Origin: Crossaster papposus
Lineage: Eukaryota; Echinodermata; Asteroidea; Velatida; Solasteridae
Assembly (NCBI GenBank): GCA_037893245.1
Contig: JBAIAA010000262.1
Coordinates: 1,364,001-1,428,000 of the forward strand
Length of the DNA: 64,000 nt
Direction of reading: 5' to 3'
The notes under the pieces were generated by a model. The model was not told the origin of the DNA. It worked only from the letters and a program-made list of their open reading frames with translations, and did no database searches. A program made the translations under genes and the position numbers. The stretch's first letter is position 1. The number at the start of each line of letters is the position of its first letter. This document shows, one piece after another, positions 1 through 64,000 of this stretch.

Positions 1-340
1 ACGCTCCCACTGCTCCACTCTACTTCATGTAAATTTAGAAACAGCAAACAAAATGAAAGCAGACATTCTAAAAACCTTCTAAAATATTTATTAAATTTGA
101 ATAACATTTAAGCAAAAATCCCTCTTTAGCAGAGCGAGGTTTTGGTCTTCGGACCTCTGGGTTATGGGCCCAGCACGCTCCCACTGCAACACTCTGCGTA
201 ATTATTTTTAATGAAAATGAAATCACTATCAAGGAAATAATTATCCTGAGCAGACCGAGGTTGTGGTCATCCGAACTCTCGGTTACTGACCAAGAAAGTG
301 TCTACTTCGTCACTCTGAGTCGAGTACCTCAAGCCATACC

Positions 341-345
341 AAAAA
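341..345 (-). terminator. Pol III T5 terminator of module A (representative)
   Basis: AAAAA on the plus strand reads TTTTT on the minus strand, five bases after the tRNA discriminator base at 351. This is the normal pol III stop. The same run sits at the same distance (10 to 6 bases left of the tRNA start) in most A modules of blocks I and IV. Confidence 0.8.
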
Positions 346-350
346 CTTGT

Positions 351-422
351 TAGCAGAGCGAGGTTTCGATCCTCGGACCTCTGGGTTATGGGCCCAGCAC
401 GCTTCCACTGCGCCACTCTGCT
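351..422 (-). tRNA. tRNA-iMet(CAT): Initiator tRNA-Met (CAT), reference copy
   Basis: Cytosolic initiator tRNA that pairs with AUG in the 43S pre-initiation complex. Reading the minus strand: acceptor AGCAGAG/CTCTGCT (all seven pairs), D-stem GCGC/GCGT, anticodon stem CTGGG/CCCAG, loop CCCATAA (anticodon CAT), variable AGGTC, T-stem CGAGG/CCTCG, T-loop ATCGAAA, discriminator A. Initiator hallmarks present: A1:U72, three closing G:C pairs (29-31:39-41), C33, and A54 in place of T54. Internal pol III promoter: A-box TGGCGCAGTGG and B-box GGATCGAAACC. No intron; CCA is not encoded, as expected. A T5 terminator follows at 341-345. Other copies are compared with this one. Intact as a gene, but activity is unknown. 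Confidence 0.93.
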
Positions 423-1309
423 TCATGTGAATTTAGAAACAGCAAACAAAATGAAAGCAGACATTCTCAAAACATTCAAAAATATGTATTACATTTGAAT
501 AACAGTGAAGCAAAAATACCTCTTTGGCAGAGAGAGGTTTTGGTCTTCGGACCTCTGGGTTATGGGCCCAGCACGTTCCCACTGCAACACTCTGCGTAAC
601 TATTTTTAATGAAAATAAAATCACTATCAAGGAAATAATTATTCTGAGCAGACCGAGCTTGTGGTCATCCGAACTCTCGGTTACTGACCAAGAAAGTGTC
701 TACTTCGTCACTCTGAGTCGAGTACCTCAAGTCATACCAAAAACTTGTTAGCAGAGCGAAATGAAAATGAAAATGAAATCACTATCAAGGACATAATTAT
801 CCTGAGCAGACCGAGGTTGTGATCATCCGAAATATTGGTTACTGGCCAAGAAAGTGTCTACTTCGTCACTCTGAGTCGAGTACCTCAAGTCATACCAAGA
901 ACGTGTTAGCAGAGCGAGGTTTCGATCTTCGGACCTTGGGTTAAGGGCCCAACACGCTTCCACTGCGCCACTCTACTTCATGTAAAGTTAGAAACAGCAA
1001 ACAAAATGAAAGCAGACATTCTAAAAACATTATAAAATATTTATTAAATTTGAATAACAGTTAAGCAAAAAAACCTCTTTAGCAGAGCGAGGTTTTGGTC
1101 TTCGGACCTCTGGGTTATGGGCCCAGCACGCTCCCATTGCAACACTCTGCGTAACTATTTTTAATGAAAATGAAAATGAAATCATTATCAAGGAAATAAT
1201 TATCCTGAGCAGACCGAGGTTGTGGTCATCCGAACTCTCGGTTAGTGACCAAGAAAGTATCTACTTCGTCACTCTGAGTCGAGTACCTCAAGTCATACCA
1301 AAAACTTGT

Positions 1310-1381
1310 TAGCAGAGCGAGGTTTCGATCCTCGGACCTCTGGGTTATGGGCCCAGCACGCTTCCACTGCGCCACTCTGCT
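1310..1381 (-). tRNA. tRNA-iMet(CAT): Initiator tRNA-Met (CAT), perfect copy
   Basis: Identical over 72 nt to 351-422. T5 at 1300-1304. Upstream spacer has the gtgaattt form. Confidence 0.92.
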
Positions 1382-3462
1382 TCATGTGAATTTAGAAACA
1401 GCAAACAAAATGAAAGCAGACATTCTAAAAACATTCTAAAATATGTATTACATTTGAATAACAGTGAAGCAAAAATACCTCTTTAGCAGAGCGAGGTTTT
1501 GGTCTTCGGACCTCTGGGTTAAGCGCCCAGCACGCTCCCACTGCACCACTCTGCGTAACTATTTTTAATGAAAATGAAATCACTATCAAGGACATAATTA
1601 TCCTAAGCAGACCGAGGTTGTGGTCATCCGAACTCTCGGTTACTGACCAAGAAAGTGTCTACTTCGTCACTCTGAGTCGAGTACCTCAAGTCATACCAAA
1701 AACTTGTTAGCAGAGACAGGTTTCGATCCTCGGACCTCTGTGTTAAGGGCCCAGCACGTTTCCACTGCGCCACTCTACTTCATGTAAAGTTAGAAACAGC
1801 AAACAAAATGAAAGCAGACATTCTAAAAACATTCTAAAATATTTATTAAATTTGAATAACAGTTAAGCAAAAATCCCTCTTTAGCAGAGCGAGGTTTTTC
1901 GTCTTCGGACCTCTGGGTTATGGGCCCAGCACGCTCCCACTGCAACACTCTGCGTAACTATTTTTAATGAAAATGAAATCACTATCAAGGAAATAATTAT
2001 TCTGAGCAGACCGAGGTTGTGGTCATCCGAACTCTCGGTTACTGACCAAAAAAGTGTCTACTTCGTCACTCTGAGTCGAGTACCTCAAGTCATACCAAAA
2101 ACTTGTTAGCAGAGCGAAGTGAAAATGAAAATGAAATCACTATCAAGGAAATAATTATCCTGAGCAGACCGAGGTTGTGGTCATCCGAACTCTCGATTAC
2201 TGACAAAGAAAGTGTCTACTACGTCACTCTGAGTCGAGTACCTCAAGTCATACCAAAAACTTGTTAGCAGAGCAAGGTTTCGATCTTCGGACCTCTGGGT
2301 TATGGGCCCAGCACGCTTCCACTGCGCCACTCTGCTTCATGTGAATTTAGAAACAGCAAACAAAATGAAAGCAGACATTCTAAAAACATTCTAAAATATT
2401 TATTACATTTGAACAACAGTGAAGCAAAAATACCTCTTTAGCAGAGCGAGGTTGTGGTCTTCGGACCTCTAGGTTATGGGCCCAGCACGCTCCCACTGCA
2501 CCACTCTGCGTAACTATTTTGTAAATGAAAATGAAATCACTATCAAGGACATAATTATCCTGAGCAGACCGAGGTTGTGGTCATCCGAAATATCGGTTAC
2601 TGGCCAAGAAAGTGTCTACTTCGTCACTCTGAGTCGAGTACCTCAAGTCATACCAAAAACGTGTTAGCAGAGCGAGGTTTCGATCTTCGGACCTCTGGGT
2701 TATGGGCCCAGCACGCTTCCACTGCGCCACTCTGCTTCATGTGAATTTAGAAACAGAAAACAAAATGAAAGCAGACATTCTAAAAACATTCTAAAATATT
2801 TATTACATTTGAACAACAGTGAAGCAAAAATACCTCTTTAGCAGAGCGATGTTGTGGTCTTCGGACCTCTGTGTTATGGGCCCAGCACGCTCCCACTGCA
2901 CCACTCTGCGTAACTATTTTTAATGAAAATGAAATCACTATCAAGGAAATAATTATCCTGAGCAGACCGAGGTTGTGGTCATCCGAACTCTCGGTTACTG
3001 ACCAAGAAAGTGTCTACTTCGTCACTCTGAGTCGAGTACCTCAAGTCATACCAAAAACTTGTTAGCAGAGCGAGGTTTCGATCTTCGGACCTCTGGGTTA
3101 TGGGCCCAGCACGCTTCCACTGCGCCACTCTGCTTCATGTGAATTTAGATACAGCAAACAAAATGAAAGCAGACATTCTAAAAACATTCTAAAATATTTA
3201 TTACATTTGAACAACAGTGAAGCAAAAATACCTCTTTAGCAGAGCGAGGTTGTGGTCTTCGGACCTCTGGGTTATGGGCCCAGCACGCTCCCACTGTACC
3301 ACTCTGCGTAACTATTTGTTTAATGAAAATGAAATCACTATCAAGGACATAATTATCCTGAGCAGACCGAGGTTGTGGTCATCCGAAATATCGGTTACTG
3401 GCCAAGAAAGTGTCTACTTCGTCACTCTGAGTCGAGTACCTCAAGTCATACCAAAAACGTGT

Positions 3463-3534
3463 TAGCAGAGCGAGGTTTCGATCTTCGGACCTCTGGGTTA
3501 AGGGCTCAGCACGCTTCCACTGCGCCACTCTACT
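3463..3534 (-). pseudogene. Initiator-body tRNA with CTT anticodon
   Basis: Loop CCCTTAA gives anticodon CTT (AAG, lysine codon) in an initiator body. The anticodon stem has an A30:C40 mismatch (CTGAG/CCCAG) and the T-stem has one A:C mismatch. Acceptor AGTAGAG pairs with CTCTGCT through one U:G. T5 at 3453-3457. Probably a pseudogene. Confidence 0.7.
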
Positions 3535-3876
3535 TCATGTAAAGTTCGAAACAGCAAACAAAATGAAAGCAGACATTCTAAAAACATTATAAAATATTTA
3601 TTAAATTTGAATAAGAGTTAAACAAAAATACCTCTTTAGCAGAGCGAAGTTTTGGTCTTCGGACCTCTGGGTTATGGACCCAGCACGCTCCCACTGCAAC
3701 ACTCTGCGTAACTATTTTTAATGAGAATGAAATCACTATCAAGGAAATAATTATTCTGAGCAGACCGAGGTTGTGGTCATCCGAACTCTCGGTTACTGAC
3801 CAAGAAAGTGTGTACTTCGTCACTCTGAGTCGAGTACCTCAAGTCATACCAAAAAATTGTTAGCAGAGCGAGGTTT

Positions 3877-3899
3877 CGATCCTCGGACCTCTGGGCCCA
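3877..3899 (-). pseudogene. Module A lacking its anticodon loop
   Basis: Around 3890 the plus strand reads cctctgggcccagc where intact copies have cctctgggttatgggcccagc. Seven bases are missing, and the two anticodon-stem strands now abut as the palindrome CTGGGCCCAG with no loop. The same lesion recurs near 6605 (2,716 bp away, same higher-order repeat) and in a B module near 19280. Cannot be a tRNA. Confidence 0.8.
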
Positions 3900-5780
3900 G
3901 CACGCTTCCACTGCGCCACTCTGCTTCATGTGAATTTAGAAACAGAAAACAAAATTAAAGCAGACATTCTAAAAACATTCTAAAATATGTATTACATTGG
4001 AATAACAGTGAAGCAAAAAACCTCTTTAGCAGAGCGAGGTTTTGGTCCTCGGACATCTGGGTTATGGGCCCAGCACGCTCACACTGCTCCACTCTACTTC
4101 ATGTACATTTAGAAACAGCAAACAAAATGAAAGCAGACATTCTAAAAACATTCTAAAATATTTATTAAATTTGAATAACAGTGAAGCAAAAATACCTCTT
4201 TAGCAGAGCGAGGTTTTGGTCTTCGGACCTCTGGGTTATGGGCCCAGCACGCTCCCACTGCAACAATCTGCGTAACTATTTTTAATGAAAATGAAATCAC
4301 TATCAAGGAAATAATTATTCTGAGCAGACCGAGGTTGTGGTCATCCGAACTCTCGGTTACTGACCAAAAAAGTGTCTACTTCGTCACTCTGAGTCGAGTA
4401 CCTCAAGTCATACCAAAAACTTGTTAGCAGAGCGAAGTGAAAATGAAAATGAAATCACTATCAAGGAAATAATTATCCTGAGCAGACCGAGGTTGTGGTC
4501 ATCCGAACTCTCGATTACTGACAAAGAAAGTGTCTACTACGTCACTCTGAGTCGAGTACCTCAAGTCATACCAAAAACTTGTTAGCAGAGCAAGGTTTCG
4601 ATCTTCGGACCTCTGGGTTATGGGCCCAGCACGCTTCCACTGCGCCACTCTGCTTCATGTGAATTTAGAAACAGCAAACAAAATGAAAGCAGACATTCTA
4701 AAAACATTCTAAAATATTTATTACATTTGAACAACAGTGAAGCAAAAATACCTCTTTAGCAGAGCGAGGTTGTGGTCTTCGGACCTCTAGGTTATGGGCC
4801 CAGCACGCTCCCACTGCACCACTCTGCGTAACTATTTTGTAAATGAAAATGAAATCACTATCAAGGACATAATTATCCTGAGCAGACCGAGGTTGTGGTC
4901 ATCCGAAATATCGGTTACTGGCCAAGAAAGTGTCTACTTCGTCACTCTGAGTCGAGTACCTCAAGTCATACCAAAAACGTGTTAGCAGAGCGAGGTTTCG
5001 ATCTTCGGACCTCTGGGTTATGGGCCCAGCACGCTTCCACTGCGCCACTCTGCTTCATGTGAATTTAGAAACAGAAAACAAAATGAAAGCAGACATTCTA
5101 AAAACATTCTAAAATATTTATTACATTTGAACAACAGTGAAGCAAAAATACCTCTTTAGCAGAGCGATGTTGTGGTCTTCGGACCTCTGTGTTATGGGCC
5201 CAGCACGCTCCCACTGCACCACTCTGCGTAACTATTTTTAATGAAAATGAAATCACTATCAAGGAAATAATTATCCTGAGCAGACCGAGGTTGTGGTCAT
5301 CCGAACTCTCGGTTACTGACCAAGAAAGTGTCTACTTCGTCACTCTGAGTCGAGTACCTCAAGTCATACCAAAAACTTGTTAGCAGAGCAAGGTTTCGAT
5401 CTTCGGACCTCTGGGTTATGGGCCCAGCACGCTTCCACTGCGCCACTCTGCTTCATGTGAATTTAGAAACAGCAAACAAAATGAAAGCAAACATTCTAAA
5501 GACATTCTAAAATATTTATTACATTTGAACAACAGTGAAGCAAAAATACCTCTTTAGCAGAGCGAGGTTGTGGTCTTCGGACCTCTGGGTTATGGGCCCA
5601 GCACGCTCCCACTGCACCACTCTGCGTAACTATTTTTTTAATGAAAATGAAATCACTATCAAGGACATTATTATCCTGAGCAGACCGAGGTTGTGGTCAT
5701 CCGAAATATCGGTTACTGGCCAAGAAAGTGTCTACTTCGTCACTCTGAGTCGAGTACCTCAAGTCATACCAAAAACGTGT

Positions 5781-5852
5781 TAGCAGAGCGAGGTTTCGAT
5801 CTTCGGACCTCTGGGTTAAGGGCTCAGCACGCTTCCACTGCGCCACTCTACT
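5781..5852 (-). pseudogene. Initiator-body tRNA with CTT anticodon
   Basis: Same variant as 3463-3534, exactly 2,318 bp further on; same mismatches. Confidence 0.7.
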
Positions 5853-6178
5853 TCATGTAAAGTTAGAAACAGCAAACAAAATGAATGCAGACATTCTAAA
5901 AACATTATAAAATATTTATTAAATTTGAATAAGAGTTAAACAAAAATACCTCTTTAGCAGAGCGAAGTTTTGGTCTTCGGACCTCTGGGTTATGGGCCCA
6001 GCACGCTCCCACTGCAACACTCTGCGTAACTATTTTTAATGAAAATGAAATCACTATCAAGGAAATAATTATCCTGAGCAGACCGAGGTTGTGGTCATCC
6101 GAAATATCGGTTACTGGCCAAGAAAGTGTCTACTTCGTCACTCTGAGTCGAGTACCTCAAGTCATACCAAAAACGTGT

Positions 6179-6250
6179 TAGCAGAGCGAGGTTTCGATCT
6201 TCGGACCTCTGGGTTAAGGGCTCAGCACGCTTCCACTGCGCCACTCTACT
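6179..6250 (-). pseudogene. Initiator-body tRNA with CTT anticodon
   Basis: Same variant, one monomer (398 bp) after 5781-5852. Confidence 0.7.
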
Positions 6251-7140
6251 TCATGTAAAGTTAGAAACAGCAAACAAAATGAATGCAGACATTCTAAAAA
6301 CATTATAAAATATTTATTAAATTTGAATAAGAGTTAAACAAAAATACCTCTTTAGCAGAGCGAAGTTTTGGTCTTCGGACCTCTGGGTTATGGGCCCAGC
6401 ACGCTCCCACTGCAACACTCTGCGTAACTATTTTTAATGAAAATGAAATCACTATCAAGGAAATAATTATCCTGAGCAGACCGAGGTTGTGGTCATCCGA
6501 ACTCTCGGTTACTGACCAAGAAAGTGTCTACTTCGTCACTCTGAGTCGAGTACCTCAAGTCATACCAAAAAATTGTTAGCAGAGCGAGGTTTCGATCCTC
6601 GGACCTCTGGGCCCAGCACGCTTCCACTGCGCCACTCTGCTTCATGTGAATTTAGAAACAGAAAACAAAATTAAAGCAGACATTCTAAAAACATTCTAAA
6701 ATATGTATTACATTGGAATAACAGTGAAGCAAAAAACCTCTTTAGCAGAGCGAGGTTTTGGTCCTCGGACATCTGGGTTATGGGCCCAGCACGCTCACAC
6801 TGCTCCATTCTACTTCATGTACATTTAGAAACAGCAAACAAAATGAAAGCAGACATTCTAAAAACATTCTAAAATATTTATTAAATTTGAATAACAGTGA
6901 AGCAAAAATACCTCTTTAGCAGAGCGAGGTTTTGGTCTTCGGACCTCTGGGTTATGGGCCCAGCACGCTCCCACTGCAACAATCTGCGTAACTATTTTTA
7001 ATGAAAATGAAATCACTATCAAGGAAATAATTATTCTGAGCAGACCGAGGTTGTGGTCATCCGAAATATCGGTTACTGGCCAAGAAAGTGTCTACTTCGT
7101 CACTCTGAGTCGAGTACCTCAAGTCATACCAAAAACGTGT

Positions 7141-12869: not shown

Positions 12870-13802
12870 GGACCATTACTGTTCACCATATATGCTTCTG
12901 AATTATTTGATATTATTGAAAAACATTTACCTAGTGTCCATTGTTATGCTGACGATACTCAATTGTATATGTCATTCAAACCAGGTAACATTACTGAGCA
13001 GCAAGCTGTTAGTAGTATGGAGAGTTGTATACACGCCATTCGCCAATGGATGTCACAGAACAGGCTAATTATAAATGATTCGAAAACTGAATTTATTATT
13101 ATTGGGACTAGGCAACAACTATCCAAAGTGAATATTTCTAATGTCAAAGTGGGCGATGTCAACATCTCACCAGTACTAACAGCTCGCAATCTTGGTCTTT
13201 GGTTTGATTCAAAGTTTAGTATGGCTAAACAAATCAGCAGTGTTTGTTCAATAAGCTTTTTTCATATTCACAATATTAGACATATCCGTAAATTTTTATC
13301 TAGAGACACCCTTAACATTTTGGTCCATGCTTTAATAACTTCCCGACTTGATTACTGCAACAGTCTTTATTTTGGCTTACCAAAATCATACTTGGATAAA
13401 CTACAACGTGTTCAAAATACAGCGGCAAGACTTGTATATGGTGCTTCTAGATACGCTCACGTTACCCCCCTGTTACAGACACTACACTGGCTTCCCATTC
13501 CAGCTCGTATTCAATTTAAAGTATTGTTACTGACATTTAAAGCATTTCATAACCAGGCTCCCAAATATCTTTGTGATTTATTAACAAAAAGGGCGAATTC
13601 CCGTTATTCCTTACGATCTCAAACTTCTAATCTGCTCAGTCTACCCATTGGAAAGATGTCAAAAACACTCGGTGACAGAGCATTTGTTGTAGCTGCACCC
13701 ACTTTATGGAACCGACTGCCCCAAAATGTCCGCTCAGCTCCGACCCTTGTAGATTTTAAGCGTAAGTTAAAAACACACTTGTTCCTTAGTGTATATGTAT
13801 AA
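12870..13802 (+). pseudogene. Partial non-LTR reverse transcriptase (C-terminal part)
   Basis: Open from the insertion edge to the TAA at 13800-13802, about 310 codons, with no stop or frameshift and no start of its own. It begins inside the RT palm with GPLLFTIYA, continues to the catalytic CYADDTQLYMSF (YADD encoded at 12945-12956), then the thumb and C-terminal region typical of CR1/L2 elements: KTEFIIIGTRQQL, ITSRLDYCNSL, QRVQNTAARL, LHWLPI and LGDRAFVVAAPTLWNRLP. The fingers, the first catalytic Asp and the endonuclease are absent, so it cannot be active. Any ATG- or TTG-initiated reading (for example from 12963) is arbitrary. Confidence 0.9.
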
Positions 13803-13996
13803 ATTATTGATTTACAGGGTATTCGATCGATCTATGTTATCGTACTTTTTATGTGTTAATTAATAATTTGTATCTTTTTATTGTTTAACCAATTCTTTAG
13901 CTGTAATGTAAGTACACTGCATTGTTATGCGCATTTGAACATAATTTCTTTTATGGAATTTGCGCAATATAAATTATTATTATTATTATTATTATT
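12871..13996 (+). mobile_element. 5'-truncated CR1/L2-type LINE fragment
   Basis: Interrupts the spacer between modules B and C. The satellite reads ...cactatcaag up to 12870 and resumes as aaataattgtcctgag after an (ATT)n run ending at about 13996; intact monomers read caaggaaataattatcctgag there. Only 0-2 bases are ambiguous at each edge, so there is no clear target-site duplication. Contents: the 3' third of a reverse transcriptase ORF (12870-13802), then about 190 bp of 3' UTR with TGCGCAATATAAA and the (ATT)n tail. 5' truncation is typical of target-primed reverse transcription. The other LINE in this window ends in a similar TGCGC...(TTA)n tail but has a clearly different protein sequence. 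Confidence 0.88.
13973..13996 (+). repeat. (ATT)n tail of the LINE fragment
   Basis: ATT microsatellite of about eight units directly after TGCGCAATATAAA. It marks the 3' end used for priming. Confidence 0.85.
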
Positions 13997-21138: not shown

Positions 21139-21168
21139 CATCATCATACTTCATCATCATCATACTAT
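21139..21168 (+). repeat. CAT trinucleotide microsatellite
   Basis: Two CATCAT runs at the 5' end of the inserted element, separated by acttcat. Confidence 0.8.
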
Positions 21169-21293
21169 AATTCGAGCAACGTTTGTCTGTTTGTTTCGCT
21201 ACTCCTCCCAAGTCCTTGGTCCGATCTCGCCCAAACTTGGTGGGTGGATGTAAGTTCACCCCAGAATTGCCCTTGAGGGGTTCATTTTTGGAA

Positions 21294-21328
21294 AGGTCAA
21301 GGTCACTGGGGTCAAAGGTCAAAGGTCA
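21294..21328 (+). promoter_or_regulatory. Cluster of AGGTCA half-sites (DR0/DR1)
   Basis: Half-sites at 21294-21299, 21300-21305, GGGTCA at 21309-21314, and AGGTCA at 21316-21321 and 21323-21328. The last three form two overlapping direct repeats with one-base spacing (DR1), the layout bound by RXR- and HNF4-type nuclear receptors. Similar half-sites recur before each 132-bp repeat. Binding is inferred from the motif only. Confidence 0.5.
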
Positions 21329-21340
21329 AATGTTCGTTTT

Positions 21341-21700
21341 TCGCTACTCCTCCCAAGTCCTTGGTCCGATCTCGCCCAAACTTACGGGTACGGGTACGTC
21401 ACCCCATCCCCAACTTCCCTTCTTCCGGTCATATGTCAAGGTCACTGGGGTCAAAGGTCAAATGTTCGTTTTTCGCTACTCCTCCCAAGTCCTTGGTCCG
21501 ATCTCGCCCAAACTTACGGGTACGGGTACGTCACCCCATCCCCAACTTCCCTTCTTCCGGTCATATGTCAAGGTCACTGGGGTCAAAGGTCAAATGTTCG
21601 TTTTTCGCTACTCCTCCCAAGTCCTTGGTCCGATCTCGCCCAAACTTACGGGTACGGGTACGTCACCCCATCCCCAACTTCCCTTCTTCCGGTCATATAT
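21341..21700 (+). repeat. Tandem 132-bp repeat inside the inserted element
   Basis: Copies start with tcgctactcctcccaagtcc at 21341, 21473 and 21605, exactly 132 bp apart. The third is cut short after ggtcatat (about 21697). A diverged earlier copy starts at 21196, 145 bp before the first. The copies are nearly identical to one another, so this amplification is recent. Confidence 0.9.
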
Positions 21701-22563
21701 TACACCCACGGGTACTTTTGACTAGTATTTATTACATTTCAATAACAGTGAAGCAAAAATACCTCTTTAGCAGAGCGAGGTTTTGGTCCTCGGACCTCTT
21801 GGTTATGGACCCAGCACGGTCCCACTGCTCCACTATGCCTAACTATTTTTAATGAAAATGAAATCACTATTAAGTAAATAATTATCCTGAGCAGACCGAC
21901 GTTGTGGTCATCCGACCTTTCCGTTACTGACCAAGAAAGTGTCTACTTCGTCACTCTGAGTCGAGTACCTCAAGTAATACCAACAACTTGTTAGCAGAGC
22001 GAGGTTTTGGTCCTCGGACCTCTGGGTTATGGGTCCAGCACGCTCCCATTGCGCCACTCTGCTTCATGTGGATTTAGAAACAGAAAACAAAATTAAAGCA
22101 GACATTCTAAAAACATTCTAAAATATGCATTACATTTGAATAACAGTGAAGCAAAAATACCTCTTTAGCCGAGCGAGGTTTTGGTCCTCGGACATCTGGG
22201 TTATGGGCCCAGCACGCTCCCACTGCTCCACTTTACTTCATGTAAATTGAGAAACAGCAAACAAAATGAAAGCAGACATTCTAAAAACATTATAAAATAT
22301 GTATTACATTGGAATAACGGTGAAGCAAAAATACCTCTTTAGCAGAGCGAGGTTTTGGTCTTCGGACCTTCTGGTTATGGGCCCAGCACGCTCCCACTGC
22401 AACACTCTGCGTAACTATTTTTAATGAAAATGAAATCACTATCAAGGAAATAATTATCCTGAGCAGACCGACGTTGTGGTCATCCGACCTCTCCGTTACT
22501 GACCAAGAAAGTGTCTACTTCGTCACTCTGAGTCGAGTACCTCAAGTAATACCAAACACCTGT

Positions 22564-41574: not shown

Positions 41575-41593
41575 AATAATAATAATAATAATA
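41575..41593 (-). repeat. (TTA)n tail of the LINE
   Basis: AAT microsatellite on the plus strand, directly adjoining the tRNA target sequence; marks the 3' end of the minus-strand element. Confidence 0.88.
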
Positions 41594-41711
41594 AGATTTG
41601 TAATGCGCACATATCCACCCTGCTGGGTGTTCAAGGCGCAGAGACCCTAAAAAACAAACAAAGTAATATTTAACTTGAAAGAAACAATAACAAATGAGAG
41701 GAACAAATAAA

Positions 41712-44700
41712 TTAGTTCTTGAAAACCTGAGACATGAGATAAGTTTTGAGAAGTGATTTGAATTTTGTTGTACACAGACAAGATCTAAGATTAAGCGGTA
41801 AAGAGTTCCAGATGTGTGGTGCAGCTGCAGAAAAACGTCTGTCGCCCCACGAGTGTCGTGACTTGGATTCCTTGAGGAGAAGCATGTTGCTGGATCGTAG
41901 GTTCCTTGATGGAGTGTAAACTTGAAGAAGTTCTGAGATGTAATGGGGAGCCTTGCCATTGAGTGCTTTGTGGACAATTAGCATAAGCTTGAAGATTATT
42001 CGTTGAGAGACAGGGAGCCAATGAAGTTGTTCCAGGATGGGGGTGATGGAACAGGATTTTTTAGAGAGTGTAACCATGCGGGCTGCGGTGTTTTGGAGGC
42101 GTTGGAGACGAGCAATCTGGTTATGCGGAAGACCATAGAAAAGGGCATTGCCGTTGTCAAGGCGAGAAGTGACAAATACATGAATTACTTTTTCTGTAGC
42201 GCTCTTGTCCAAAAACTTGCGTATTTTACCGATGTTCCTGATGTGAAATGTTGAGAGACGAATGACGTTGTTGATGTGTGGTTGAAGTGTCATTGACGAA
42301 TCAAAAATAACACCCAAGTTTCGAGCCTGCAACGAGGGAGCTATCTGAGCATCACCGATGGAAATGTATGGCACTGAAACTTTTGATAATTGTTGACGTG
42401 ATCCAAATAAAAGGAACTCTGTCTTGTCGTCATTTAACTTCAGGAAGTTCTGTTGCGTCCAGTGGCGAATCTCTTGGATACATTTCTCAAGTCTTTCAAT
42501 GGAGGCATTGGCATGTTCTCGAGAAGATTTAAACGTGATGTATAGCTGAGTGTCGTCCGCATAGACATGGTAATTCAGGTTAAATTTTAAAATGATGTCA
42601 CGAATTGGCAAAGTGTACAGCGTAAACCACTGTGGGCCCAGTACTGACCCCTGTGGCACAGAGTAGTTCAAGACAACCGGGTCTGATATTGCAGTGCCGA
42701 TACACACGTGCTGAGTTCGATTGGAGAGATAAGAATTGCACCATGCTAGGGCTGTGTCCTGTATGCCGAGGTAATTCTGAAGCCGGGAGAGGAGGATGTT
42801 GTGGTCAACAGTGTCAAAAGCGGCACTCAAGTCTAATAGGACTAGTGCTGTAAGGTTTCCATTGTCCATGGCTGAAAGAATATCGTTGTTCACACGGACT
42901 AGTGCAACTTCCGTCCCATGGAAAGGCTTGTATGCCGACTGGAACGTGTCGGACAGGTTGAAAGCATCAATATGATCGCGAATGCGTGATGAAACTACTC
43001 GTTCAATGACTTTTCCGAGATACTTTAAGTTCGCAACTGGTCTGTAGTTTTTGAATACCTCCTTGTCCAGGTTGGGTTTCTTGATGAGCGGCCCGATGTA
43101 GGAAATCTTGAGGCTATCGGGGAAGTGACCGGAGCTGAGAGATTTGTTTACAAGTGCAGTGATGTACGGAACAAATGTATCAATGTTCTGCTTTATCATG
43201 GATGTTGATACTGGGTCCAGTTCACAGGATTTTGTAGGAGATTTCATGATAATTCTTTGAATCTCAGCAGCAGTGGTAGGCTCAAACACATAGAGTCTAC
43301 AGTCTTGGTGAAGATGTGGCGATGTCTGGCGCATGTCACAAGGGGCCGATGAGAATGATGAGCGGATGTCTGAAATCTTGGTGACAAAGAACTTGGAGAA
43401 TTCATTTGCCAGATCCTGATCATTGTAGTTGGATGGAAGGACAGGGGTTCTGGGTTTCAGCAACAGTTTATCAATTATCTTGAAGAGCTTCTTTTGATCT
43501 CCTGAGGATTCATGAACTTGGGATGTGAAGTGGATAATCTTCACCTGGTTGATCAATTTCCTAACCACATTACATTGGTTGCGATATTCTCGTCGGTGTG
43601 ATTCAAGTTTTCCGTTTTCCCGCCATTTTCGCTCAAGTTGACGACGAATCTTTCTTGCAGCTCTAATGTCATCATTGAACCAAGGAAATTCAGTTCGGAC
43701 CTTGACAGATCTTGTTTTCAAAGGTGCGTGTAAATCCAAGATGTCACGGACAGTACTTTCGTATTGGCTGACATATACATTCAAGTCGTCATGATCGAGG
43801 TTTAATTTTTCCAAATGAGTTCCTATATCCCGGAACACTTCAGGAAGATCTACGTTTTTCCACTGTCGGGTCTTTACAGTGATGGTTGGGATGTTGGGCT
43901 TGCACAGGCTCATATTACACATAACTGCATAATGGTCTGATAATCCAGGTAGAATCGTAATGTTAGAGACAGCAGGTGGGGTGATATCACGAGTTATTAC
44001 AAGGTCCAGACAATGACCGAGACGATGAGTCGGCTCCGTGACATGCTGGATAAGGCCATAAGCCGATAGCAAATGCTTGAATTGGTTTGCATTGGTGTTA
44101 TGGATGTCATCAACATGAATGTTGAAGTCACCGGTGATGATGATGTCAGATGGGTGTAGGAGATATTCCAAAATCAAATTCTCAAATTCTTGAAGAAAAC
44201 TTGAAAAAGTCACATGATGGCCGTTGGCATCTCTTTCGGGTCTGTATAAAACGACGAGGCGAACAGATTTTGAGTTTCCTGTTATTTCAGCATGAAGAGA
44301 TTCGAAGGTTGTGTAATGGATGTTATTATCTTTCACAGAGACACATAAACTGGATCTGTAAAGTATTGCAACTCCCCCTCCAGTCTTGTGAGGTCTAGGA
44401 ATTTGATGAAAATAGTAGCCAGCAGGGGTACACTGACGACATGTTAGGTCATCACCTGGTCTCAGCCATGTTTCAGACACAGCAACAAGGTCTAGATTTT
44501 TCTGCAGAACAAAATCCACGAAGTCTTCAGACTTGTTACAGATGGACTGTGTATTTAAAACACAAAAGCTGAGTTGGGATTTGGCGTGAGTCACTGGTGC
44601 TGGAACAGATGGGTGTGTGGGTTCAGGCTGTAGTGATTGGTGAACTGTTCTACGGCGACCCGCTTTTTTACCACGATGTGTAGGTTGGTAAATACAGTTG

Positions 44701-45104
44701 GGATTTACAAAAAGTCCGAGATTCTGTAACTCAATAGGGCATGAAGGTAAAGTTGTAGCACGTGTAGATGGGGCATAACGCAGACTAAGAAGCTTGTTAC
44801 GGGAGTAGGAAATTGAAGATTTCAGACTGGTTTCCGAGTTCGAATTATTTTCAGCATCAGGACCGGGATTTAGAGCAATGTCACCAAAGATCACAATTTC
44901 CAAGTGAAAACTAGCTGGTGAGTTGTCATAGTAAGGAACAGGGCATTTAAGGTATCTTCGATGTTGGATGGATTTTAATGTCTTTGGCATAGTGCATGCA
45001 CTGTACACAGTTGATGTTGATTGCTGAAAGCTGACCACAGATGAGTCATTGGAGCACAGTGGTCCAGCAAGCAGGGAGAGAATAAACAGGAAGCTGACCT
45101 CCAT
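41712..45104 (-). CDS. LINE polyprotein: endonuclease and reverse transcriptase
   Basis: 1,130 codons, uninterrupted. The frame is open from about 45350, but the first in-frame ATG is at 45104, so I start there. Residues 1-18 are hydrophobic, like a signal peptide. Residues 75-82 read DIALNPGP, a 2A-like motif with Ala where the consensus has Glu. Residues 178-395 are an EEP/APE-type endonuclease: N184 in LNTQS, E211 in SETWL, GDFN 325-328, SDH 389-391. From about 685 comes the reverse transcriptase: NYRPVANL, LLDLSAAFD 756-764, VPQGSVLGP, catalytic YADD 848-851 (42552-42563). The C-terminal CR1/L2 region has TSRLDNGNALFYGLP, QRLQNTAARM, LHWLPV and WGDRRFSAAAPHIWN. It nicks DNA and copies its RNA at the nick. 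One oddity is GPQWF where GPLLF is usual. All catalytic residues I can recognise are present, so it may be, or recently was, active. Confidence 0.93.
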   Translation of the reverse strand: MEVSFLFILSLLAGPLCSNDSSVVSFQQSTSTVYSACTMPKTLKSIQHRRYLKCPVPYYDNSPASFHLEIVIFGDIALNPGPDAENNSNSETSLKSSISYSRNKLLSLRYAPSTRATTLPSCPIELQNLGLFVNPNCIYQPTHRGKKAGRRRTVHQSLQPEPTHPSVPAPVTHAKSQLSFCVLNTQSICNKSEDFVDFVLQKNLDLVAVSETWLRPGDDLTCRQCTPAGYYFHQIPRPHKTGGGVAILYRSSLCVSVKDNNIHYTTFESLHAEITGNSKSVRLVVLYRPERDANGHHVTFSSFLQEFENLILEYLLHPSDIIITGDFNIHVDDIHNTNANQFKHLLSAYGLIQHVTEPTHRLGHCLDLVITRDITPPAVSNITILPGLSDHYAVMCNMSLCKPNIPTITVKTRQWKNVDLPEVFRDIGTHLEKLNLDHDDLNVYVSQYESTVRDILDLHAPLKTRSVKVRTEFPWFNDDIRAARKIRRQLERKWRENGKLESHRREYRNQCNVVRKLINQVKIIHFTSQVHESSGDQKKLFKIIDKLLLKPRTPVLPSNYNDQDLANEFSKFFVTKISDIRSSFSSAPCDMRQTSPHLHQDCRLYVFEPTTAAEIQRIIMKSPTKSCELDPVSTSMIKQNIDTFVPYITALVNKSLSSGHFPDSLKISYIGPLIKKPNLDKEVFKNYRPVANLKYLGKVIERVVSSRIRDHIDAFNLSDTFQSAYKPFHGTEVALVRVNNDILSAMDNGNLTALVLLDLSAAFDTVDHNILLSRLQNYLGIQDTALAWCNSYLSNRTQHVCIGTAISDPVVLNYSVPQGSVLGPQWFTLYTLPIRDIILKFNLNYHVYADDTQLYITFKSSREHANASIERLEKCIQEIRHWTQQNFLKLNDDKTEFLLFGSRQQLSKVSVPYISIGDAQIAPSLQARNLGVIFDSSMTLQPHINNVIRLSTFHIRNIGKIRKFLDKSATEKVIHVFVTSRLDNGNALFYGLPHNQIARLQRLQNTAARMVTLSKKSCSITPILEQLHWLPVSQRIIFKLMLIVHKALNGKAPHYISELLQVYTPSRNLRSSNMLLLKESKSRHSWGDRRFSAAAPHIWNSLPLNLRSCLCTTKFKSLLKTYLMSQVFKN
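44859..44882 (-). other. 2A-like NPGP motif in the LINE ORF
   Basis: Encodes DIALNPGP. The 2A consensus is D(V/I)ExNPGP, where the ribosome fails to join G and P. The E-to-A change may weaken it. It lies after a hydrophobic N-terminus and before the endonuclease, the arrangement reported for some sea-urchin and other invertebrate LINEs. Confidence 0.6.
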
Positions 45105-45428
45105 TGTCCACAGCTGGGCATAATAAACAGTGTTATGTAATGGAGGTGATGGCTGACCGCACAGCAATGCAACCACCAATGTGTGTGTTAGCTCTGTACA
45201 GCAAATTTCTCGATGTGACACAGCAAAAATCCAACAGAAAATCACCAATTTCACATCATAGATGACTCCAAGATGCACAGAAAAAGTCCAGCAGATTCCT
45301 GGTGTTGTAACAAATCCAGTGGTATAAGAGTGAGAACACAAATGAAGCAAAACACAAAGAAATTGGCAAAAATTTGCAGAGCTGATTTGAGTGGCAGCTT
45401 GTTAGGCGCTCACCTCAATGGAAATTTT

Positions 45429-56388: not shown

Positions 56389-56490
56389 TCATGTGAATTT
56401 AGAAACAGCAAAAAAAATTAAAGCAGACATTCTAAAAACATTCTAAAATATGTATTACATTTGAATAACAGTGAAGCAAAAATACCTCTT

Positions 56491-56562: not shown

Positions 56563-56888
56563 TCATGTGAATTTAGAAACAGCAAACAAAATTAAAGCAG
56601 ACATTCTAAAAACATTCTAAAATATGTATTACATTTGAATAACAGTGAAGCAAAAATACCTCTTTAGCAGAGCGAGGTTTTGGTCCTCGGACCTCTCGGT
56701 TATGGGCCCAGCACGCTCCCACTGCAACACTCTGCGTAACTATTTTTAATGAAAATGAAATCACTATCAAGGAAATAATTATCCTGAGCAGACCGAGGTT
56801 GTGGTAATCGGAACTCTCGGTTACTGACCAAGAAAGTGTCTACTTCGTCACTCTGAGTCGAGTACCTCAAGTCATACCAAAAACGTGT

Positions 56889-56960
56889 TAGCAGAGCGAG
56901 GTTTCGATCTTCGGACCTCTGGGTTAAGGGCCCAGCACGCTTCCACTGCGTCACTCTACT
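56889..56960 (-). tRNA. Initiator-body tRNA with CTT anticodon, well paired
   Basis: Identical to 46374-46445. T5 at 56879-56883. Confidence 0.6.
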
Positions 56961-58826
56961 TCATGTAAAGTTAGAAACAGAAAACAAAATTAAAGCAGAG
57001 ATTCTAAAAACATTCTAAAATATTTATTAAATTTGAATAACAGTGAAGCAAAAATACCTCTTCAGCAGAGCGAGGTTTTGGTCTTCGGACCTCTGGGTTA
57101 TGGGCCCAGCACGCTCCCACTGCAACACTCTGCGTAACTATTTGTAATGGAAATGAAATCACTATCAAGGAAATCATTATCCTGAGCAGACCGAGGTTGT
57201 GGTCATCCGAACTCTCGGTTACTGACCAAGAAAGTGTCTACTTCGTCACTCTGAGTCGAGTACCTCATGTCACACCAACAACTTGTTAGCAGAGCGAGGT
57301 TTCGATCCTCGGACCTCTGGGTTATGGGCCCAACACGTTCCACTGCGCCACTCTGCTTCATGTGAATTTAGAAACAGCAAACAAAATGAAAGCAGACATT
57401 CTAAAAACATTCTAAAATATTTATTACATTTGAATAACAGTGAAGCAAAAATATCTCTTCAGCAGAGCGAGGTTTTGGTCTTCGGACCTCTGGGTTATGG
57501 GCCCAGCACGCTCCCACTGCAACACTCTGCGTAACTATTTGTTATGGAAATGAAATCACTATCAAGGAAATCATTATCCTGAGCAGACCGAGGTTGTGGT
57601 CATCCGAACTCTCGGTTACTGACCAAGAAAGTGTCTACTTCGTCACTCTGAGTCGAGTACCTCAAGTCATACCAAAAACTTGTTAGCAGAGCGAGGTTTC
57701 GATCCTCGGACCTCTGGGTTATGGGCCCAGCACGCTTCCACTGCAACACTCTGCTTCATGTGAATTTAGAAACAGCAAACAAAATTAAAGCAGACATTCT
57801 AAAAACATTCTAAAATATTTATTATATTTGAATAACAGTGAAGCAAAAATACCTCTTTAGCAGAGCGAGGTTTCGATCCTCGGACGTCTGGGTTATGGGC
57901 CCAGCACGCTTCCACTGCGCCACTCTACTTCATTTGAATTTAGAAACAGCAAACAAAATTAAAGCAGACATTCTAAAAACATTCTAAAATATGTATTACA
58001 TTTGAATAACAGTGAAGCAAAAATACCTCTTTAGCAGAGCGAGGTTTTGGTCCTCGGACCTCTAGGTTATGGGCCCAGCACGCTCCCACTGCTCCACTCT
58101 ACTTCATGTAAATTTAGAAACAGCAAACAAAATTAAAACAGACATTCTAAAAACATTCTAAAATATTTATTAAATTTGAATAACAGTGAAGCAAAAATAC
58201 CTCTTTAGCAGAGCGAGGTTTTGGTCTTCGGACCTCAGGGTTATGGGCCCAGCACGCTCCCACTGCAACACTCTGCGTAACTATTTTTAATGAAAATGAA
58301 ATCACTATCAAGGAAATAATTATCCTGAGCAGACCGAGGTTGTGGTCATCCGAACTCTCGGTTACTGACCAAGAAAGTGTCTACTTCGTCACTCTGAGTC
58401 GAGTACCTCAAGTCATACCAACAACTTGTTAGCAGAGCGAGGTTTCGATCCTCGGACCTCTTGGTTATGGGCCCAACACGTTCCACTGCGCCACTCTGCT
58501 TCATGTGAATTTAGAAACAGCAAACAAAATGAAAGCAGACATTCTAAAAACATTCTAAAATATTTATTACATTTGAATAACAGTGAAGCAAAAATACCTC
58601 TTTAGCAGAGCGAGGTTTTGGTCCTCGGACCTCTGGGTTATGTGCCCAGCACGCTCCCACTGCAACACTCTGCGTAACTATTTTTAATGAAAATGAAATC
58701 ACTATCAAGGAAATAATTATCCTGAGCAGACCGAGGTTGTGGTCATCCGAACTCTCGGTTACTGACCAAGAAAGTGTCTACTTCGTCACTCTGAGTCGAG
58801 TACCTCAAGTCATACCAAAAACTTGT

Positions 58827-58898
58827 TAGCAGAGCGAGGTTTCGATCCTCGGACCTCTGGGTTATGGGCCCAGCACGCTTCCACTGCGCCACTCTGCT
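58827..58898 (-). tRNA. tRNA-iMet(CAT): Initiator tRNA-Met (CAT), perfect copy
   Basis: T5 at 58817-58821. First of three A modules in a row at 174-bp spacing. Confidence 0.92.
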
Positions 58899-59000
58899 TC
58901 ATGTGAATTTAGAAACAGCAAACAAAATTAAAGCAGACATTCTAAAAACATTCTAAAATATGTATTACATTTGAATAACAGTGACGCAAAAATACCTCTT

Positions 59001-59072
59001 TAGCAGAGCGAGGTTTCGATCCTCGGACCTCTGGGTTATGGGCCCAGCACGCTTCCACTGCGCCACTCTGCT
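59001..59072 (-). tRNA. tRNA-iMet(CAT): Initiator tRNA-Met (CAT), perfect copy
   Basis: T5 at 58988-58992. Second of the triple. Confidence 0.92.
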
Positions 59073-59174
59073 TCATGTGAATTTAGAAACAGCAAACAAA
59101 ATTAAAGCAGACATTCTAAAAACATTCTAAAATATGTATTACATTTGAATAACAGTGAAGCAAAAATACCTCTT

Positions 59175-59246
59175 TAGCAGAGCGAGGTTTCGATCCTCGG
59201 ACCTCTGGGTTATGGGCCCAGCACGCTTCCACTGCGCCACTCTGCT
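59175..59246 (-). tRNA. tRNA-iMet(CAT): Initiator tRNA-Met (CAT), perfect copy
   Basis: T5 at 59162-59166. Third of the triple; its upstream spacer has gaattgag. Confidence 0.92.
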
Positions 59247-59746
59247 TCATGTGAATTGAGAAACAGAAAACAAAATTAAAGCAGACATTCTAAAAACATT
59301 CTAAAATATGTATTACATTTGAATAACAGTGAAGCAAAAATACCTCTTTGGCAGAGCGAGGTTTTGGTCCTCAGACCTCTGGGTTATGGGCCCAGCACGC
59401 TCCCACTGCTCCACTCTACTTCATGTACATTTTGAAACAGCAAACAAAATTAAAGCAGACATTCTAAAAACATTCTAAAATATTTATTACATTTGAATAA
59501 CAGTGAAGCAAAAATACCTCTGTAGCAGAGCGAGGTTTTGGTCTTCGGACCTCTGGGTTATGGGCCCAGCACGCTCCCACTGCAACACTCTGCGTAACTA
59601 TTTTTAATGAAAATGAAATCACTATCAAGGAAATAATTATCCTGAGCAGACCGAGGTTGTGGTCATCCGAACTCTCGGTTACTGACCAAGAAAGTGTCTA
59701 CTTCGTCACTCTGAGTCGAGTACCTCAAGTCATACCAAAAACTTGT

Positions 59747-59818
59747 TAGCAGAGCGAGGTTTCGATCCTCGGACCTCTGGGTTATGGGCCCAGCACGCTT
59801 CCACTGCGCCACTCTGCT
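59747..59818 (-). tRNA. tRNA-iMet(CAT): Initiator tRNA-Met (CAT), perfect copy
   Basis: T5 at 59737-59741. Confidence 0.92.
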
Positions 59819-60144
59819 TCATGTGAATTTAGAAACAGCAAACAAAATTAAAGCAGACATTCTAAAAACATTCTAAAATATGTATTACATTTGAATAACA
59901 GTGAAGCAAAAATACCTCTTTAGCAGAGCGAGGTTTTGGTCTTCGGACCTCTGGGTTATGTGCCCAGCACGCTCCCACTGCAACACTCTGCGTAACTATT
60001 TTTAATGAAAATGAAATCACTATCAAGGAAATAATTATCCTGAGCAGACCGAGGTTGTGGTCATCCGAACTCTCGGTTACTGACCAAGAAAGTGTCTACT
60101 TCGTCACTCTGAGTCGAGTACCTCAAGTCATACCAAAAACTTGT

Positions 60145-60216
60145 TAGCAGAGCGAGGTTTCGATCCTCGGACCTCTGGGTTATGGGCCCAGCACGCTTCC
60201 ACTGCGCCACTCTGCT
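60145..60216 (-). tRNA. tRNA-iMet(CAT): Initiator tRNA-Met (CAT), perfect copy
   Basis: T5 at 60135-60139. Confidence 0.92.
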
Positions 60217-60318
60217 TCATGTGAATTTAGAAACAGCAAACAAAATGAAAGCAGACATTCTAAAAACATTCTAAAATATGTATTACATTTGAATAACAGT
60301 GAAGCAAAAATACCTCTT

Positions 60319-60390
60319 TAGCAGAGCGAGGTTTCGATCCTCGGACCTCTGGGTTATGGGCCCAGCACGCTTCCACTGCGCCACTCTACT
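60319..60390 (-). tRNA. tRNA-iMet(CAT): Initiator tRNA-Met (CAT), acceptor G:U variant
   Basis: Acceptor 5' strand AGTAGAG instead of AGCAGAG, keeping a U3:G70 pair; otherwise identical. T5 at 60306-60310. Confidence 0.8.
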
Positions 60391-60492
60391 TCATGTGAAT
60401 TTAGAAACAGCAAACAAAATTAAAGCAGACATTCTAAAAACATTCTAAAATATGTATTACATTTGAATAACAGTGAAGCAAAAATACCTCTT

Positions 60493-60564
60493 TAGCAGAG
60501 CGAGGTTTCGATCCTCGGACCTCTGGGTTATGGGCCCAGCACGCTTCCACTGCGCCACTCTGCT
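60493..60564 (-). tRNA. tRNA-iMet(CAT): Initiator tRNA-Met (CAT), perfect copy
   Basis: T5 at 60480-60484. Confidence 0.92.
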
Positions 60565-61064
60565 TCATGTGAATTGAGAAACAGAAAACAAAATTAAAGC
60601 AGACATTCTAAAAACATTCTAAAATATGTATTACATTTGAATAACAGTGAAGCAAAAATACCTCTTTGGCAGAGCGAGGTTTTGGTCCTCGGACCTCTGG
60701 GTTATGGGCCCAGCACGCTCCCACTGCTCCACTCTACTTCATGTACATTTTGAAACAGCAAACAAAATTAAAGCAGACATTCTAAAAACATTCTAAAATA
60801 TTTATTACATTTGAATAACAGTGAAGCAAAAATACCTCTGTAGCAGAGCGAGGTTTTGGTCTTCGGACCTCTGGGTTATGGGCCCAGCACGCTCCCACTG
60901 CAACACTCTGCGTAACTATTTTTAATGAAAATGAAATCACTATCAAGGAAATAATTATCCTGAGCAGACCGAGGTTGTGGTCATCCGAACTCTCGGTTAC
61001 TGACCAAGAAAGTGTCTACTTCGTCACTCTGAGTCGAGTACCTCAAGTCATACCAAAAACTTGT

Positions 61065-61136
61065 TAGCAGAGCGAGGTTTCGATCCTCGGACCTCTGGGT
61101 TATGGGCCCAGCACGCTTCCACTGCGCCACTCTGCT
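61065..61136 (-). tRNA. tRNA-iMet(CAT): Initiator tRNA-Met (CAT), perfect copy
   Basis: T5 at 61055-61059. Confidence 0.92.
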
Positions 61137-61462
61137 TCATGTGAATTTAGAAACAGCAAACAAAATTAAAGCAGACATTCTAAAAACATTCTAAAATATG
61201 TATTACATTTGAATAACAGTGAAGCAAAAATACCTCTTTAGCAGAGCGAGGTTTTGGTCTTCGGACCTCTCGGTTATGGGCCCAGCACGCTCCCACTGCA
61301 ACACTCTGCGTAACTATTTTTAATGAAAATGAAATCACTATCAAGGAAATAATTATCCTGAGCAGACCGAGGTTGTGGTCATCGGAACTCTCGGTTACTG
61401 ACCAAGAAAGTGTCTACTTCGTCACTCTGAGTCGAGTACCTCAAGTCATACCAAAAACGTGT

Positions 61463-61534
61463 TAGCAGAGCGAGGTTTCGATCTTCGGACCTCTGGGTTA
61501 AGGGCCCAGCACGCTTCCACTGCGTCACTCTACT
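61463..61534 (-). tRNA. Initiator-body tRNA with CTT anticodon, well paired
   Basis: Identical to 46374-46445; the fifth such copy in block IV. T5 at 61453-61457. Confidence 0.6.
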
Positions 61535-62382
61535 TCATGTAAAGTTAGAAACAGAAAACAAAATTAAAGCAGAGATTCTAAAAACATTCTAAAATATTTA
61601 TTAAATTTGAATAACAGTGAAGCAAAAATACCTCTTCAGCAGAGCGAGGTTTTGGTCTTCGGACCTCTGGGTTATGGGCCCAGCACGCTCCCACTGCAAC
61701 ACTCTGCGTAACTATTTGTAATGTAAATGAAATCACTATCAAGGAAATCATTATCCTGAGCAGACCGAGGTTGTGGTCATCCGAACTCTCGGTTACTGAC
61801 CAAGAAAGTGTCTACTTCGTCACTCTGAGTCGCGTACCTCAAGTCATACCAAAAACTTGTTAGCAGAGCGAGGTTTCGATCCTCGGACCTCTGGGTTATG
61901 GGACCAGCACGCTTCCACTGCGCCACTCTGCTTCATGTGAATTTAGAAACAGCAAACAAAATTAAAGCAGACATTCTAAAAACATTCTAAAATATGTATT
62001 ATATTTGAATAACAGTGAAGCAAAAATACCTCTTTAGCAGAGCGAGGTTTTGGTCATCGGACCTCTGGGTTATGGGCCCAGCACGCTCCCACTGCTCCAC
62101 TCTACTTCATGTAAATTTAGAAACAGCAAACAAAATTAAAACAGACATTCTAAAAACATTCTAAAATATTTATTAAATTTGAATAACAGCGAAGCAAAAA
62201 TACCTCTTTAGCAGAGCGAGGTTTTGGTCTTCGGACCTCTGGGTTATGGGCCCAGCACGCTCCCACTGCTCCACTCTACTTCATGTAAATTTAGAAACAG
62301 CAAACAAAATTAAAGCAGACATTCTAAAAACATTCTAAAATATTTATTAAATTTGAATAACATTGAAGCAAAAATACCTCTT

Positions 62383-62454
62383 TAGCAGAGCGAGGTTTCG
62401 ATCCTCGGACCTCTGGGTTATGGGCCCAGCACGCTTCCACTGCGCCACTCTGCT
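62383..62454 (-). tRNA. tRNA-iMet(CAT): Initiator tRNA-Met (CAT), perfect copy
   Basis: T5 at 62370-62374. Confidence 0.92.
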
Positions 62455-63757
62455 TCATTTGAATTTAGAAACAGCAAACAAAATTAAAGCAGACATTCTA
62501 AAAACATTCTAAAATATGTATTACATTTGAATAACAGTGAAGCAAAAATACCTCTTTAGCAGAGCGAGGTTTTGGTCTTCAGACCTCTGGGTTATGGGCC
62601 CAGCACGCTCCCACTGCAACACTCTGCGTAACTATTATTAATGAAAATGAAATCACTATCATCACTATCAAGGAAATAATTATCCTGAGCAGACCGAGGT
62701 TGTGGTCATCCGAACTCTCGGTTACTGACCAAGAAAGTGTCTACTTCGTCACTCTGAGTCGAGTACCTCAAGTCATACCAACAACTTGTTAGCAGAGCGA
62801 GGTTTCGATCCTCGGACCTCTGGGTTATGGGCCCAGCACGTTCCACTGCGCCACTCTGCTTCATTTGAATTTAGAAACAGCAAACAAAATTAAAGCAGAC
62901 ATTCTAAAAACATTCTAAAATATGTATTACATTTGAATAACAGTGAAGCAAAAATACCTCTTTAGCAGAGCGAGGTTTTGGTCTTCAGACCTCTGGGTTA
63001 TTGTCCCAGCACGCTCCCACTGCAACACTCTGCGTAACTATTATTAATGAAAATGAAATCACTATCAAGGAAATAATTATCCTGAGCAGACCGAGGTTGT
63101 GGTCATCCGAACTCTCGGTTACTGACCAAGAAAGTGTCTACTTCGTCACTCTGAGTCGAGTACCTCAAGTCATACCAACAACTTGTTAGCAGAGCGAGGG
63201 TTCGATCCTCGGACCTCTGGGTTATGGGCCCAGCACGTTCCACTGCGCCACTCTGCTTCATGTGAATTTAGAAACAGCAAACAAAATGAAAGCAGACATT
63301 CTAAAAACATTCTAAAATATTTATTACATTTGAATAACAGTGAAGCAAAAATACCTCTTTAGCAGAGCGAGGTTTTGGTCCTCGGACCTCTGGGTTATGT
63401 GCCCAGCACGCTCCCACTGCAACACTCTGCGTAACTATTTTTAATGAAAATGAAATCACTATCAAGGAAATAATTATCCTGAGCAGACCGAGGTTGTGGT
63501 CATCCGAACTCTCGGTTACTGACCAAGAAAGTGTCTACTTCGTCACTCTGAGTCGAGTACCTCAAGTCATACCAAAAACTTGTTAGCAGAGCAAGGTTTC
63601 GATCCTCGGACCTCTGGGTTATGGGCCCAGCAAGCTTCCACTGCGCCACTCTGCTTCATGTGAATTTAGAAACAGCAAACAAAATTAAAGCAGACATTCT
63701 AAAAACATTCTAAAATATGTATTACATTTGAATAACAGTGAAGCAAAAATACCTCTT

Positions 63758-63829
63758 TAGCAGAGCGAGGTTTCGATCCTCGGACCTCTGGGTTATGGGC
63801 CCAGCACGCTTCCACTGCGCCACTCTGCT
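63758..63829 (-). tRNA. tRNA-iMet(CAT): Initiator tRNA-Met (CAT), perfect copy
   Basis: T5 at 63745-63749. Last complete A copy before the window edge. Confidence 0.92.
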
Positions 63830-64000
63830 TCATGTGAATTTAGAAACAGCAAACAAAATTAAAGCAGACATTCTAAAAACATTCTAAAATATGTATTACA
63901 TTTGAATAACAGTGAAGCAAAAATACCTCTTTAGCAGAGCGAGGTTTTGGTCCTCGGACCTCTGGGTTATGGGCCCAGCACGCTCCCACTGCAACACTCT

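Follow-up and report, generated by a model that had tools for sequence, protein, structure and literature searches.

Does a stretch of DNA that reads as one initiator-tRNA body after another represent a true satellite, and if so, are its tRNA bodies maintained as genes, used as chromatin elements, or simply carried along as repeat units? We addressed this for a 64,000-nucleotide stretch (hereafter the window; C262:1364001–1428000), located in one contig (C262) of a 1,023,315,904 bp (∼1.02 Gb) assembly comprising 1,841 contigs. The window had been described, in an initial annotation made from its sequence, as a satellite DNA made of initiator tRNA (iMet) genes.

The array and its monomer

Monomer sequence accounts for 58,417 of the 64,000 bases in the window, with every match on the minus strand, and the array runs past both window ends. 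The array, an example of each of its three modules (named A, B and C) and the insertions that interrupt it are as follows:

1–64000, minus strand: portion of the iMet-derived satellite array, with a ∼398 bp monomer and higher-order repeats (from monomer coverage)
127–198, minus strand: example of module B, a decayed iMet body (the B consensus has 3 non-standard stem pairs)
247–320, minus strand: example of module C, 74 nt, deeply decayed and iMet-derived (from alignment to A; its start lies 102 nt downstream of that of A)
351–422, minus strand: example of module A, an exact initiator-tRNA body, one of 40 (exact match; Rfam 58.7 bits; ARAGORN Met(cat))
12873–13996, plus strand: 5'-truncated non-LTR retrotransposon with a reverse transcriptase (RT) fragment and an ATT tail (Pfam RVT_1, 1.7e-08)
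21139–21725, no strand assigned: insertion with 2.9 copies of an identical 132-bp tandem unit (from repeat analysis)
41575–45425, minus strand: non-LTR retrotransposon with endonuclease and RT (RVT_1, 4.7e-29; Exo_endo_phos, 4.8e-19)

An exact-match count returned precisely 40 copies of the perfect 72-nt initiator-tRNA body on the minus strand of the window and none on the plus strand; in mononucleotide shuffles of the window (n = 20), the closest approach to this body was 37 mismatches. Genes for tRNA were called with ARAGORN, which reported 113 in the window (all on the minus strand), and with the Rfam tRNA model, which gave 192 matches at or above its gathering threshold. Among the 150 Rfam matches listed, all lie on the minus strand and 40 have the top score of 58.7 bits. 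Initiator tRNAs are characterized by a CAT anticodon, an A1–U72 pair, three G–C pairs in the anticodon stem, and A54 and A60. These features are all present in the exact body (as seen in its sequence and in the Rfam alignment), which is also identical to five genes on a different contig, C885, described below.

The monomer repeats with a period of 398 bp and consists, read along the minus strand, of module A (72 nt), a 30-nt spacer, module C (74 nt), a spacer of 48–49 nt, module B (72 nt) and a long spacer of 101–102 nt. The A consensus does not differ from the C885 iMet genes, and the B consensus differs from them at 7 positions. Module C is homologous to A (alignment score of 78, versus a best score of 39 in 2,000 shuffles); it folds differently from A and, in ungapped comparison, commonly differs from it at 22 of 72 sites. 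Extra 174-bp units, each a body with a long spacer, sit between monomers. Higher-order periods of 970 and 1470 bp were found, together with an 801-bp period in one sampled subarray (L012).

Runs of at least four T residues within 25 nt of the 3' end, the terminator feature of a functional tRNA gene array, follow most bodies: 300 of 380 for A, 359 of 375 for B and 134 of 138 for the extra units (M), in the window and 14 sampled ten-kb stretches. The same holds for 62 of the 81 sampled exact bodies with enough flanking sequence. By eye, the B box of module B is altered, module C contains no good B box, and no 3' tail is visible in the monomer.

Most of the initial description of the window therefore stands: it had claimed at least 40 perfect bodies, their identity as initiator tRNAs (recognized here by both Rfam and ARAGORN), and a ∼398-bp monomer with three tRNA-derived modules on one strand (borne out by spacing and module homology). 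A claimed ∼58 kb of uninterrupted array is right as to the amount of monomer sequence, but the array is broken by the three insertions; likewise, the claimed fixed order of modules holds for the A–C–B monomer but not for the entire window, in which the 286 A/B-type bodies comprise 113 A, 110 B, 58 in extra units and 5 that are unclassified.

The element at 41575–45425 contains a 1,229-codon frame that is open from stop to stop, and its junction with the array has one match genome-wide. It lies within a tRNA body, in the T arm; as one isolated instance, this gives no sign of targeting. The array junction of the element at 12873–13996 has 42 genome matches within 3 mismatches, of which the sole exact one is the window's own; the other 41 are element copies with 2–3 mismatches, on contigs other than C146 (the second contig with a long array).

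Extent, neighbours and copy number

We mapped C262 and C146 from 80 sampled places and found that the array occupies about 2.5 Mb of the former and 1.4 Mb of the latter. On C262 it starts between 60 and 100 kb, its end falls at 2.62–2.64 Mb, and both inserts and switches of orientation occur along it; it is followed by a 67-bp satellite and then by an 86-bp satellite at 3.0–3.15 Mb, close to the contig end at 3.155 Mb. The order on C146 begins with a 217-bp satellite and a short array block in both orientations (4.307–4.44 Mb). More of the 217-bp satellite, interrupted by inserts, continues to 5.436 Mb; array then extends to 6.713 Mb or beyond, and the same 67- and 86-bp satellites follow, with the latter at 6.92 Mb and the contig end at 6.926 Mb. 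The neighbouring satellites, which were mapped on these two contigs only, lie within 4.20–5.44 and 6.80–6.93 Mb of C146 and 2.64–3.155 Mb of C262. Stretches with the 217-, 67-, 86- and 178-bp satellites gave no Rfam match at gathering threshold. Between blocks of the 217-bp satellite, one stretch (L024; C146:5400001–5410000) reads by eye like a parvovirus-type replication gene.

The common block order on C146 and C262 could reflect either two haplotypes or two loci. We considered whether C146 is a haplotig of C262; two insertion junctions taken from the window both lack a match on C146, which speaks against allelism of the two contigs at those points only.

The family is present on at least nine contigs. 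Outside C146 and C262, one search pattern located it at 28 places on C13, C163, C255, C271, C723, C783 and C833; all 11 of the places that were read are flanked on both sides by array sequence, with bodies carrying 3 to 6 mismatches. Long head-to-tail arrays, higher-order repeats with local homogenization, and several sites shared with other satellites are among the features that identify a satellite, and the existence of one with initiator-tRNA bodies is confirmed.

Genome-wide there are 1,281 exact copies of the 72-nt body, including the five C885 genes. Counted over an equal length (the first 56 nt, rather than the full 72 nt to which that number refers), one decayed version, which carries three changes, has 5,928 copies and the intact version has 1,669. 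A 58-nt piece of module C occurs 2,591 times. Of the 921 A/B-type bodies sampled from the window and 14 ten-kb stretches, 82 are exact. From 50 sampled places (window included), we estimate that C146 and C262 together contain roughly 16,000 bodies within 12 mismatches, a figure that is rough because exact bodies estimated in this way number 1,604, versus the 1,281 counted genome-wide. To speak of ‘satellite DNA made of initiator tRNA genes’ therefore gets the kind right, and the scale extends far beyond the window, but ‘made of genes’ needs qualifying, since so few sampled bodies are exact and a decayed version is commoner than the intact one.

Two further observations concern the remainder of the assembly. 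The mitochondrial contig has the gene order ND1 (minus), tRNAs, COX1, ND4L, COX2, with AAA in COX1 at an expected asparagine; this order and code presumably fit an echinoderm, most likely a sea star. Contig C8, at least 5.2 Mb long, contains bacterial-looking terminal-oxidase genes in one region (2872001–5210009; L093), including one for a 675-aa subunit I whose neighbours resemble subunits II and III, and C8 looks like a bacterial genome in the assembly, from either a symbiont or a contaminant.

Tests for selection on the array bodies and on a conventional gene cluster

Constraint on the A bodies was sought in tree-based rates, stem-breaking changes, promoter boxes and cluster distances, and none was detected overall. 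The window and 14 ten-kb stretches yielded 319 complete monomers, and rates were obtained by Fitch parsimony from the 258 unique ones, giving 3.96 changes per site for the A body, 2.92 for the B body, 1.93 for module C, and 3.13, 2.51 and 3.35 for the 30-nt, 48-nt and long spacers, respectively. Neither the A body nor the B body changes more slowly than the two longer spacers (one-sided permutation p of 0.95 and 0.39). Module C does change more slowly than the spacers (1.93 versus about 3.1 per site; p = 0.005), and the most decayed module is thus the slowest-changing one. An ungapped comparison in which bodies appeared more conserved than their flanks, for A and B alike, ignored indels and was superseded by this aligned test.

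Of the 118 distinct mutations seen in A and M bodies that have no more than 6 mismatches, 51 disrupt a stem pair, versus 54.5 ± 4.5 expected by chance. The promoter boxes are not spared either (A box 3.27, B box 4.82, rest of the body 3.92, spacers 3.08 changes per site). The T5 run in the long spacer, at 0–4 changes per site, is steadier than the spacer mean of 3.35, and the one in the 30-nt spacer, at 0–19, changes more than the mean of 3.13. In the largest cluster with exact bodies (0.05 cut-off; 116 monomers, 34 of them perfect), the distance is 0.045 for the body and 0.056, 0.041 and 0.038 for the spacers. Small clusters rich in perfect bodies point in part the other way: a cluster of 13 monomers (9 perfect) gives 0.021 for the A body, 0.040 for the long spacer and 0.011 for the 48-nt spacer, and a cluster of 6 (all perfect) gives 0 for the A body and 0.018 for the long spacer. 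Rates, stems and the largest cluster thus show no purifying selection on the array bodies, with a mixed result from the small clusters; weak selection could be masked by exchange between A and B bodies, which would inflate their apparent rate. Of the subarrays sampled, L012 is the most uniform: it is built of the 801-bp repeat, is ∼99% self-identical, and has no exact body among 50.

The genes on C885 (563–574 kb) present a different picture. Five bodies there are identical over all 72 nt and are accompanied by one decayed copy; T runs lie close behind each gene, and the flanks are unlike those of the array. In the four genes that were aligned, all six pairs have 0 of 72 body differences, with 4–17 differences in 58–59 upstream sites and 12–42 in 82–86 downstream sites (one of the four is responsible for the largest flank differences). 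Judged by sequence, this is the pattern that selection on iMet genes leaves in this genome; the array, taken as a whole, lacks it. The C885 cluster is predicted to contain the cell's conserved iMet genes. It was located with searches that excluded the flanking bases of the array, in which any further conventional gene preceded by GA (as array bodies are) would be missed.

Origin of the satellite and comparison with known systems

We believe that the array is very probably a gene-derived satellite, spread by unequal exchange, in which the copies drift without detectable selection. The founder would have been a ∼400-bp unit, a small cluster of iMet gene copies in which A was intact and B and C were already decaying. 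The consensus differences (0, 7 and 22 of 72 for A, B and C) suggest that A remained the same as the real iMet gene until the founding and, with the A consensus matching the C885 genes while B and C had decayed, was probably still under selection in the founder cluster. Unequal exchange could then have produced the megabase arrays and their several forms of higher-order repeat, with selection presumably lost once the unit had turned into a satellite. Drift would have followed; in the samples examined, subarrays without any exact body are no less homogenized than the others. Transcription of some of the 1,281 exact bodies may persist, but none of our findings requires it. Pol III transcription of an intact subset in a particular tissue or stage, which would provide a huge reserve of iMet genes or fragments that the genome must silence elsewhere if an excess of initiator is to be avoided, seems unlikely.

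Among the roles offered in the initial annotation, selfish or neutral tandem amplification fits best; its interpretation is upheld in part, for the kind of satellite and not for a role in iMet supply. A dosage array, in which exact bodies are kept for iMet supply (for example in eggs or embryos), could draw on the number of exact bodies and on the T runs behind most of those sampled; it is nonetheless very unlikely and is left unsupported by the lack of detected constraint on A bodies, by homogenized subarrays free of exact bodies, and by the conserved conventional cluster on C885. It is distinctly unlikely that the array acts as a chromatin element, in which TFIIIC bound at the repeated A and B boxes would organize a boundary or a (peri)centromere with no tRNA being made. 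The dense B-box-like sites, the position among other satellites, the slow change of module C and the frequent T runs would all suit such a role, but the rate of change in the A and B boxes matches that of the remaining body, and the B boxes of modules B and C are altered or poor. Furthermore, no CENP-B-like box was found: the best match in the iMet satellite has 3 of 9 mismatches, and the best in three other satellites scanned have 2–3 of 9. The suggested TFIIIC or boundary role consequently gains little beyond the presence of terminator-like T runs.

Two other explanations were considered. Long arrays are hard to assemble, and C146 and C262 may be two haplotypes, in which case the copy number is inflated up to twofold; an assembly artefact is nevertheless highly improbable given unique retrotransposon junctions without a match on C146, orientation switches, graded divergence, transitions into other satellites, and the absence of N in 20 ten-kb stretches read. 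The least credible explanation is a retroposed (SINE-type) family that became tandem only later. Its promoter unit would indeed be tRNA-derived, but every place read outside C146 and C262 is embedded in array sequence and the monomer has no visible tail; the dispersed copies with a 3' tail and unrelated flanks that mark a tRNA-derived SINE were not seen, the copies on C885 being plain genes and one decayed copy.

The gene-derived satellite thus favoured has its nearest counterparts in satellites that arose from 5S rDNA. One of these is reportedly 5SHindIII of Hoplias malabaricus. Another is PcP190 of frogs, which is reported to be transcribed (PMC11675491); in both, as here, the satellite monomer contains the sequence of a Pol III gene. 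The present family differs from them in having the initiator tRNA as its source, three paralogous modules in each monomer, and more than 1,200 bodies that are still exact.

The tRNA arrays of Entamoeba carry several different tRNAs and are the organism's own genes. Here, in contrast, a single isoacceptor is involved, most bodies are decayed, and conserved genes lie elsewhere. The likeness to the arrays of Entamoeba histolytica lies in tandem repeats with tRNA genes, which up to 2010 had been reported from Entamoeba only (PMC2888827). According to the same paper, zebrafish and Nematostella have large numbers or clusters of tDNAs, and clustered tDNAs in Xenopus and zebrafish are nearly all parallel (PMC2888827). 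The likeness to these three is again one of very many clustered tDNAs; neighbours in their clusters are mostly different isoacceptors (PMC2888827), whereas the present array is a single-isoacceptor satellite with higher-order repeats and other satellites around it. For Asterias amurensis, 6,779 predicted tRNAs are reported in 483 Mb (PMC11090083), a count that might or might not share this cause.

An essential gene has here become a megabase satellite, with more than 1,200 copies that are still textbook-intact. The family serves as a natural experiment on the handling of repeat-bound Pol III genes by a genome and on the way in which genes give rise to satellites, and it carries a practical warning, in that tRNA counts from gene finders in such a genome would be mostly satellite. 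Among the titles and abstract openings listed from the open-licence PMC literature, we found no satellite derived from an initiator tRNA, and the word ‘tRNA’ is absent from the main text of one satellite review (PMC12692304). Since 5S-derived satellites are known and no initiator-tRNA satellite was found, we place this family among the gene-derived satellites, with the initiator tRNA as a new source.
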